64,000 nucleotides of DNA. It comes from Streptomyces sp. NBC_00271. GTDB lineage: Bacteria > Actinomycetota > Actinomycetes > Streptomycetales > Streptomycetaceae. Shown piece by piece: positions 31,736 to 33,079 of this stretch (its first letter is position 1; every line of letters begins with the position of its first letter). Both the position numbers and the translations under genes were made by a program. Below the pieces are notes generated by a model. It saw nothing but the letters and a program-made list of their open reading frames with translations. It ran no database searches and had not been told where the DNA came from. The stretch lies in assembly GCF_036178845.1 (NCBI RefSeq), contig NZ_CP108070.1:10106001-10170000 (forward strand), written 5' to 3'.

Positions 31736-31886
31736 GTGGACCTCCCGCGGAACGGGTGCCCTCGCATCGGAGAGACATACGTGTGCGGGAGTGGCCAGAT
31801 TGCGGCGTTCCGATGCCGGATGAGGCCTTCCTCCCGGCCCTTGGCTCGCTACGCTGGAGAGGGATGCTTTGCCACGGGGGGTTCAC

Positions 31887-32684
31887 ATGGGCAGTGCGCG
31901 ATTCCGGACTCAGAGCAAATCTACTCAGGCCAAGGCCACGCCCCGGCCCACCACCGAGACTGAGCCGGAAGTGAGGCAGCCGACCAGCCGATGGCACGAG
32001 GTTGAGCCGCCGGCGCGGCAGCCGACCAGTCAGGGGCAAGGGGTTGAGCTGCCACCGAGGCAGCCCACCAGCCGATGGCACGAGGTTGAGCCGCCGGCGC
32101 GGCAGCCGACCAGTCGAGTGCAGGAGGTTCGGCGCGTGCGAGACAACTCGGACGTGCACCCGCTCATCGACTACGCCGACTACGACAGGTTGCTGCGCCT
32201 GGCCCGTGAGCCGAGCCCCGAGCAGATCAGCCGCCTGCGTCCCGACGAGCCGACAACTCCGTTGGTGTATGTCTTCGGCCCGATCACCGACAGCCAGGTG
32301 GCGATCAACTCCCAAGGGAATGTCACCCAGAATCGGACCGACTTACGGCCCGAGCAGTTGTACCGGGCGCAGTTCCAGCCGGCGCGGCGTGCCGACCCCG
32401 TACAGGTGGTGGAAACGCTGCGGGTCGAAGTCGATCGGCTGGGGCTCGACCTCTACTCGCAGTACGTCATTCGGCAGGCCGCGGCGGTGATCAAGGTGGA
32501 GCTGGGCCGCCCCCGGATCAATGAGGAACGTGTCCGCAGGGCCGTCGAGCAGATCCTCGCCTGCCTGGCCGGGCAGCTCGGCGGCGCCCCGCTCACCGCC
32601 CGTCTGGCGGCCCTGTCGGCTCGCCTGGAGGCTGTCCTCGGTAGCGCGCCGGAAGAGAACTCCGGTTCAGGAGGCGTACGTTGA
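31887..32684 (+). CDS. repeat-bearing protein with amyloid-like motif
   Basis: A 265-residue soluble protein. Residues 30-80 hold four 14-residue repeats built on RQPTS-x4-VE-x-PP, likely disordered. Residues 130-149 carry FGPITDSQVAINSQGNVTQN, a Gln/Asn-rich hydrophobic motif echoed at the start of the next gene. The C-terminal part (about 165-255) is helical and positively charged (VVETLRVEVDRLGLDLYSQY). ATG with a GGGGGG-TTCAC leader. No enzyme domain is recognised. The shared motif suggests the two products co-assemble, which is inference. Confidence 0.55.
   Translation: MGSARFRTQSKSTQAKATPRPTTETEPEVRQPTSRWHEVEPPARQPTSQGQGVELPPRQPTSRWHEVEPPARQPTSRVQEVRRVRDNSDVHPLIDYADYDRLLRLAREPSPEQISRLRPDEPTTPLVYVFGPITDSQVAINSQGNVTQNRTDLRPEQLYRAQFQPARRADPVQVVETLRVEVDRLGLDLYSQYVIRQAAAVIKVELGRPRINEERVRRAVEQILACLAGQLGGAPLTARLAALSARLEAVLGSAPEENSGSGGVR
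31974..32123 (+). repeat. four 42-bp in-gene tandem repeats
   Basis: Units start at about 31974, 32016, 32058 and 32100. Units 1 and 3 are nearly identical (both encode RQPTSRWHEVEPPA), while 2 and 4 diverge, so the array looks like a recent duplication of an 84-bp pair. Copy number may vary between strains. Confidence 0.8.
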
Positions 32685-33079
32685 CGAGTTCGGGCGGTGC
32701 CCAGTTCCACGGGCCCATTCACGGCAGCCAGATCGCGATCGGCGGTCACCACGTGACCCAGCATCAGTACGTGACGGCCGACGAGGGGGCGAGCGCCAGG
32801 CTCGCCGAGGTCGTACGGTCGTTGCTCGCGGCGCTGGAGACGCTCGGCCTGGCGGCCGAGGACGAGACCGCCGTGCGCCAGGACGCCGAGGCCGCTCTGG
32901 CGGAGGCCGCCCGGTCCCAGCCGGACGTGGGACGCCTGCGCGGTCTGCTGGGCCGGATCAGGACCGTACTCGCATCGGTGGCGGCCGGCGCGGCCACGGG
33001 GGCTGCCGCGGGCGCCGGCACCGGAGCGGCCGAGCTGGCACACGCCGTGCTCGTCGACCTGCAGAACGCCCTGCCCTGA
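32681..33079 (+). CDS. small protein with N-terminal amyloid-like motif
   Basis: A 132-residue protein beginning with FHGPIHGSQIAIGGHHVTQ at residues 9-27, homologous to the motif in the upstream gene. The remainder is helical (LAEVVRSLLAALETLGLAAE) and ends with a Gly/Ala-rich segment (VAAGAATGAAAGAGTGAAEL) that could insert in a membrane. TTG start, overlapping the previous stop, with a strong AGGAGGCGTACG leader, so the two proteins are made together. Not a recognised family. Confidence 0.55.
   Translation: MTSSGGAQFHGPIHGSQIAIGGHHVTQHQYVTADEGASARLAEVVRSLLAALETLGLAAEDETAVRQDAEAALAEAARSQPDVGRLRGLLGRIRTVLASVAAGAATGAAAGAGTGAAELAHAVLVDLQNALP

Follow-up and report, generated by a model that had tools for sequence, protein, structure and literature searches.

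Two adjacent genes in the window, the 64,000-nucleotide stretch of Streptomyces DNA analysed here, share a motif of about 20 residues, and on balance it is probable that their products form a two-protein module joined by this beta-forming and otherwise flexible element. The best reading of the data is that a homotypic beta-motif would join a helical protein to a partner that resembles a sensor, an arrangement resembling the BASS families of bacterial amyloid signalling with reversed polarity and without an NLR. Direct support comes from the motif itself, its recurrence, the adjacency of the genes that carry it, its matching between partners in two classes, its modularity and its fused single-gene forms. 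Judging from sequence, the same kind of small protein (motif plus four predicted helices) is coupled elsewhere to beta-helix, multi-pass membrane and FHA-membrane proteins.

The window pair and its shared motif

The layout of the pair is given in Table 1; for gene 1, an alternative TTG start is also open at 31869. The first-pass annotation described a motif common to both products, stop-start coupling of the genes and a helical domain in each protein, and all three agree with the present analysis. The TGA and the TTG share four bases, AlphaFold predicts helices in both proteins, and the two motif windows align with a score of 40, compared with 16.7 ± 3.6 for shuffled sequences, none of which reached 40 in 5000 trials. 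The whole proteins score 78 against 33 ± 5.7 for shuffles (0/5000 as high). A 30-position motif profile of 20 rows, which includes both window copies and is blind to the membrane-class version of the motif, found nothing in the 12.3 Mb genome beyond the two window copies, with a cut-off as loose as E ≤ 0.5. Imperfect repeats of ~14 residues (RQPTSRWHEVEPPA and variants) are also seen by eye in the translation of the gene 1 front half, at window positions 31970-32125.

Table 1. Features of the gene pair, with positions in the window
Feature	Position	Strand	Description
Gene 1	31887..32684	+	Pro-rich N-terminal half, then motif, then helical domain; 265 aa from ATG
Motif copy 1, FGPITDSQVAINSQGNVTQN	32274..32333	+	gene 1 residues 130-149, ATG at 31887 = residue 1
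Gene 1 helical domain, paralogous to that of gene 2	32397..32639	+	helices in AlphaFold model; hhalign; genome profile search
Stop-start overlap TTGA	32681..32684	+	gene 1 TGA 32682-32684, gene 2 TTG 32681-32683; four bases
Gene 2	32681..33079	+	motif, then four-helix domain, then Gly/Ala-rich tail; 132 aa; TTG start
Motif copy 2, FHGPIHGSQIAIGGHHVTQH	32705..32764	+	gene 2 residues 9-28, TTG at 32681
Gene 2 four-helix domain	32783..33070	+	residues 35-130, Gly/Ala tail included; AlphaFold
Gly/Ala tail of gene 2	about 32981-33034	+	within four-helix domain

The AlphaFold model of gene 2 contains four helices (residues 35-55, 59-76, 83-105 and 114-130), preceded by a segment (residues 1-32) with pLDDT below 50. 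The motif is thus modelled as disordered and outside the helix bundle, and does not appear as part of a larger globular fold; in the model of gene 1 it forms two low-confidence strands. The Gly/Ala-rich tail of gene 2 had been called possibly membrane-active. This is unsupported, because the tail has only moderate hydrophobicity (highest Kyte-Doolittle mean over 19 residues, 1.29) and is placed inside the helix bundle by AlphaFold. Gene 2 is under purifying selection, with dN/dS of 0.18-0.30 in four comparisons, and the C-terminal half of gene 1 gives values of 0.16-0.73.

The likeness of the two proteins is not confined to the motif, a point absent from the earlier description. The post-motif part of gene 1 aligns to the helical part of gene 2 with a score reached by 3/5000 shuffles, hhalign relates the gene 1 helical domain to the small-protein profile with a probability of 97.5, and the small-protein profile recovers gene 1 in the whole genome at E 5.7e-5. 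Gene 1 and gene 2 are therefore paralogues over motif plus helical domain, and they look like old tandem paralogues in which motif and helices occur twice, gene 1 having a long Pro-rich front in addition and gene 2 a Gly/Ala tail. Common descent alone could thus explain the shared motif of the window. A tandem duplication in which the motif was merely inherited from a motif-plus-helix gene, making interaction through it unnecessary, would also agree with the absence of pair-specific matching in the window's class (see below). We nevertheless consider this explanation quite improbable, since the motif of gene 1 has been kept while the rest of its compared part diverged. Among six diverged relatives it is the best-conserved stretch, with a mean identity of 0.55 compared with 0.27 for the helical part and 0.15 for the remainder. 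Moreover, other classes share the motif between proteins of different domain content, and gene order is kept in all eight relatives in named Streptomyces genomes, five of which have surroundings unlike those of the window (by eye). In each of the eight the two genes stand side by side and the partner carries the motif, so that homologues living apart without it were not found in the window class. The 4-base overlap is present in six of these relatives, and the spacing differs in the other two. By eye, an ABC-transporter-like neighbour is common to the window and two of the eight (L126 and L127); no surroundings are listed for L130.

Distribution and partner classes of the small protein

Gene 1 and gene 2 match no Pfam family over its curated cut-off, and by the same standard neither has an NLR or enzyme domain, as had been noted earlier. 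The best sub-threshold match is CysA_C_terminal (E 0.06, 14.4 bits against a cut-off of 29.7), NCBIfam gives zero matches, and PADLOC returns weak matches only (PDC-M14B at E 0.034); a known-domain identity was therefore rejected. Pfam holds EAD models, and no EAD-type curated domain match was found for either gene in Pfam above cut-off or in NCBIfam. A known beta-repeat was likewise rejected, as the best matches of PDB sequences to the motif profiles were RAD52 at E 0.58 and phosphotriesterase at E 0.074, and 14 membrane-class motif windows matched nothing in Pfam at E ≤ 1. The profile of the whole small protein weakly matches only coiled-coil and designed proteins (best E 0.0075). Fold comparison, with a copper storage protein and other four-helix bundles among the candidates, yielded helix bundles only, which were taken as generic; HeLo/MLKL entries are absent among the fold matches listed, which does not in itself exclude such a fold. 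Membership in DUF5955 (PF19380) was also considered and rejected. Gene 2 does not match this family, which matches the helical part of two relatives weakly, at E 0.021 (15.7 bits) and E 0.001 (19.8 bits), both below the curated cut-off of 27.1. DUF5955 proper occurs in 36/37 genomes of the genus, usually once, and a motif of this type was not seen in the six DUF5955 proteins inspected. Finally, gene 2 has no match in the viral contigs or plasmids searched, by which phage or plasmid cargo was rejected; a beta-helix-class relative matches seven plasmid records, each under 60% identity.

A profile of gene 2-like proteins matches 193/392 Streptomyces genomes and, in a class-wide sample, 18/246 genomes, 15 of them from Streptomyces. 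Such a wide spread could fit a housekeeping role, in which the motif would be a small beta-roll or beta-arch fixing a hetero-oligomer constitutively, with no templating and no switch. This fixed scaffold is rather unlikely in our judgement; the homotypic motif and the adjacency of the genes fit it equally well, and it accounts for the sequence data nearly as well as templating does, but the unfolded motif in the predicted monomer of gene 2 speaks, if weakly, against it.

The pairing itself was examined in 102 loci with a small-protein match, which became 92 distinct loci after merging nine duplicates and setting aside L014, where no upstream ORF is present (L010, L011 and L013 are without a profile match). 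The places read in detail, 60 of those listed for the profile matches and 30 further loci, are not a random draw. Simple text rules were used to sort the partners into classes. The gene in front of the small gene is mainly of three kinds: a right-handed beta-helix protein (PF13229), a membrane protein, or a protein of the window kind. Membrane-class partners are roughly 600-680 residues long with three to four strongly hydrophobic segments in the four checked, and show no match in Pfam (five scanned) or NCBIfam (three). Beta-helix and membrane partners have their version of the motif at the C-terminus or close to it; in gene 1 it is internal. Using a motif profile built from small proteins only, at least 10 bits was reached by the upstream protein in 50/92 loci and by 0/650 other ORFs of the same loci. 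At a threshold of at least 7 bits the numbers are 66/92 and 2/650, and at 5 bits or more they are 75/92 (four spurious) and 33/650. The control ORFs were drawn from all 102 loci, duplicates included, and have a length of at least 100 aa and a GC3 of at least 0.8.

The recurrence in adjacent genes was also observed across whole genomes. The window/beta-helix motif profile, with rows from G000, G049 and G004 and none from G013, G015 or G056, gave 15 matches at E ≤ 1e-3 in nine of 100 genomes, the next best lying at E 0.056. All 15 fall on a small protein or its adjacent partner, with both present in six genomes; in the genomes searched, this version of the motif is restricted to these genes. Of 21 membrane-partner genes, 18 are followed by the small gene within about 200 bases (exceptions L202, L206 and L210; L217 was left out). 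A true motif match is missing in 17 loci, six with a membrane partner and eleven without a partner, and by three profiles 11/92 small genes have no partner in the flank examined.

Several loci show further features. In L069, L076, L077 and L081, four of the eleven loci without a partner, the small gene follows a malate dehydrogenase gene (by eye), with no motif-bearing partner in the flank. The small proteins of L005, L046, L094, L147 and L189 resemble one another in a front piece of ~25-40 residues (approximately ..REIQREMDKxPV..); their loci yielded no motif partner. Behind the membrane-class small gene of L009, L015, L148, L150 and L153 there is a third gene whose product has RWN/RWD near its start and a later hydrophobic stretch (by eye), so this locus may be a three-gene operon.

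The motif is exchanged in some lineages. Over the sequence that precedes the motif, the partners in L223 and L233 are relatives of the membrane-class partner (E 1.2e-17 and E 2.2e-10); they end in a wholly different motif of the APIQNV type (APIQNVxGxxI), APIQNVAGSNISGVSQ or a near copy. The small proteins behind them start with a motif of the same type, APIQNVVGRDIRGVHQ in L223 (0/5000 shuffles), and are weakly related to other small proteins (E 0.014 and 0.073). Seen from the partner side, comparison of these sequences indicates that the motif was exchanged in L223 and L233 and that the neighbour's motif changed along with it. RRFDIGEQQADRLSNVAGDQYNY occurs in a membrane partner with an FHA domain, and the small protein that follows has FNIGNQQGGVVNNVAGNQTV; the helical part of this small protein matches gene 2 at E 1.6e-4. 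For this class the reading covered both genes of L010, L220 and L221 and the partner alone of L219; no partner was found under the filter in L222. The FHA-class motif of L010 and L219-L221 reads NIGxQQ ... NVAGDQ, unlike the other classes. One-gene versions occur on plasmids of Nocardia, Saccharothrix and Clavibacter (L186-L189), where motif and helices are fused behind DUF1508 or other modules, and no partner gene was noticed in their annotated flanks.

Matching of motifs within pairs

We compared each partner's motif with that of its own small protein and with those of the others in its class, using 74 loci; 13 without a motif match, the spurious L069, L076, L077 and L081, and L059 (0.5 bits) were dropped. 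The score for the own partner is 84.6 against 74.2 for others in the beta-helix class (n=24) and 68.2 against 46.7 in the membrane class (n=44), and in both cases 0/20,000 permutations are as high. Matching persists after grouping relatives, with p<1e-4 both for the membrane class (70% identity, 14 groups) and for the beta-helix class (90% identity, 19 groups); a coarser grouping leaves one or two groups, on which no test is possible. Sign tests against the nearest relative give no significant result (13 to 10 with one tie; 24 to 17 with three ties). Matching is therefore demonstrated between lineages and not among close relatives, with phylogenetic inertia only partly controlled. The window class shows no within-pair matching (41.8 against 42.4, p=0.66, n=11; another test with n=6 gave p=0.52). 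Motif matching thus characterises lineages of the beta-helix and membrane classes and is not demonstrated for the window pair. The first-pass proposal of a matched signalling pair accordingly stands in part: the motif does recur in adjacent genes, but the paralogy of the helical domains and the lack of pair-specific matching in the window's class leave the matching itself without backing there.

Individual pairs illustrate the likeness. In L104, NINGGIHGGTFAFGDQ is found in both partner and small protein, and the L200 pair carries GRADNSSFAFG and GRADNSAFAFG. In a matrix of 10 × 10 motifs, the own small protein is best in 9/10 rows and 7/10 columns; since the representatives were hand-chosen, the matrix illustrates the matching and does not test it. 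Matching residues are encoded by identical codons more often than expected (754/1072 against 656), and some gene conversion is therefore possible. The genome of the window (G000 C1) holds a second pair, with a membrane partner, at about 7.11 Mb (L209, L153), whose motifs ISNSAVSMG and ITRSAVNFG also match.

Proposed mechanism and comparison with known systems

In the coupling that we favour, the partner protein would sense something, and its clustered or exposed motifs could then pile onto that of the helical protein by homotypic beta-arch stacking, perhaps with amyloid-like templating, which would gather the helical domains into an output state. We infer the physical binding, the cross-beta stacking, the role of the partner as sensor and the direction of the signal. 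By analogy with signalling motifs of similar size, cross-beta templating is the obvious candidate, and an amyloid nature of the motif is plausible.

The first-pass annotation suggested defence or a cell-fate switch, and a defence role finds no support. PADLOC matches among the eight neighbouring genes (MzaA at 2.6e-15, mad3 at 1.1e-29, mad8 and AriA) lie in genes that look by eye like a sigma factor and an ABC ATPase, no clear defence gene was found among these neighbours, and gene 2 is absent from the viral contigs and plasmids searched. Abortive infection or cell death, in which sensor-triggered assembly of gene 2 would damage the membrane, is highly improbable. It could be argued by analogy with the Bell/HeLo four-helix effectors as presented in two papers (PMC7889193, PMC9815663), from the Gly/Ala-rich tail of gene 2 and from the membrane class, in which the C-terminal half of 25/44 small proteins attains a hydropathy of 1.6. 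However, this value is reached by 0/24 small proteins of the beta-helix class and 1/6 of the window class, gene 2 itself reaches only 1.29, and the neighbourhood offers no clear defence gene.

A broader proposal is tentative and somewhat doubtful: that Streptomyces may possess, across the genus, prion-like pairs of sensor and effector that lack NLRs and have the polarity reversed, in which one small helical family with several interchangeable N-terminal motif families would serve beta-helix, FHA-membrane and multi-pass membrane sensors, each wired by motif identity. If right, motif-templated bacterial signalling would reach well past NLRs, with a candidate small protein in about half of the sampled Streptomyces genomes. 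The matched motifs would be a natural set of orthogonal pairs for studying how beta-motif specificity evolves, and function hypotheses would follow for several uncharacterised protein families at once.

Dyrka et al. (2020) reportedly found bacterial amyloid signalling sequences in Bell-NLR gene pairs. A description of the present pairs was not found in the open literature; prior notice in the original BASS paper is possible. The effector-associated type of domain termed EAD offers one comparison. EADs are described as domains tied to vWA-MoxR, GTPase and related prokaryotic conflict systems, where the components of a system are linked through homotypic copies that neighbouring genes encode (PMC7159879). 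The present pairs likewise have a homotypic element in two adjacent-gene proteins, but their shared element is about 20 residues long and the scanned partners have no such NTPase.

Ten amyloid signalling families, BASS1-10, are described for Bell and NLR genes that lie next to each other; the Bell protein has the motif at its C-terminus and the NLR at its N-terminus (PMC7889193, PMC8086366, PMC9815663, PMC12261475). In contrast, gene 1 and 13 other partners scanned with Pfam have no NLR (NB-ARC/NACHT). For comparison with the bundle and hydrophobic membrane helix of the BASS effector, gene 2 has four predicted helices and a tail of hydropathy 1.29. Compared by description, BASS and the present pairs have in common a short motif in adjacent or overlapping genes, one protein that is a small predicted helix bundle, occurrence in actinobacteria and several motif families; the polarity is the reverse, with the motif N-terminal in the present small protein and C-terminal or internal in its partner.
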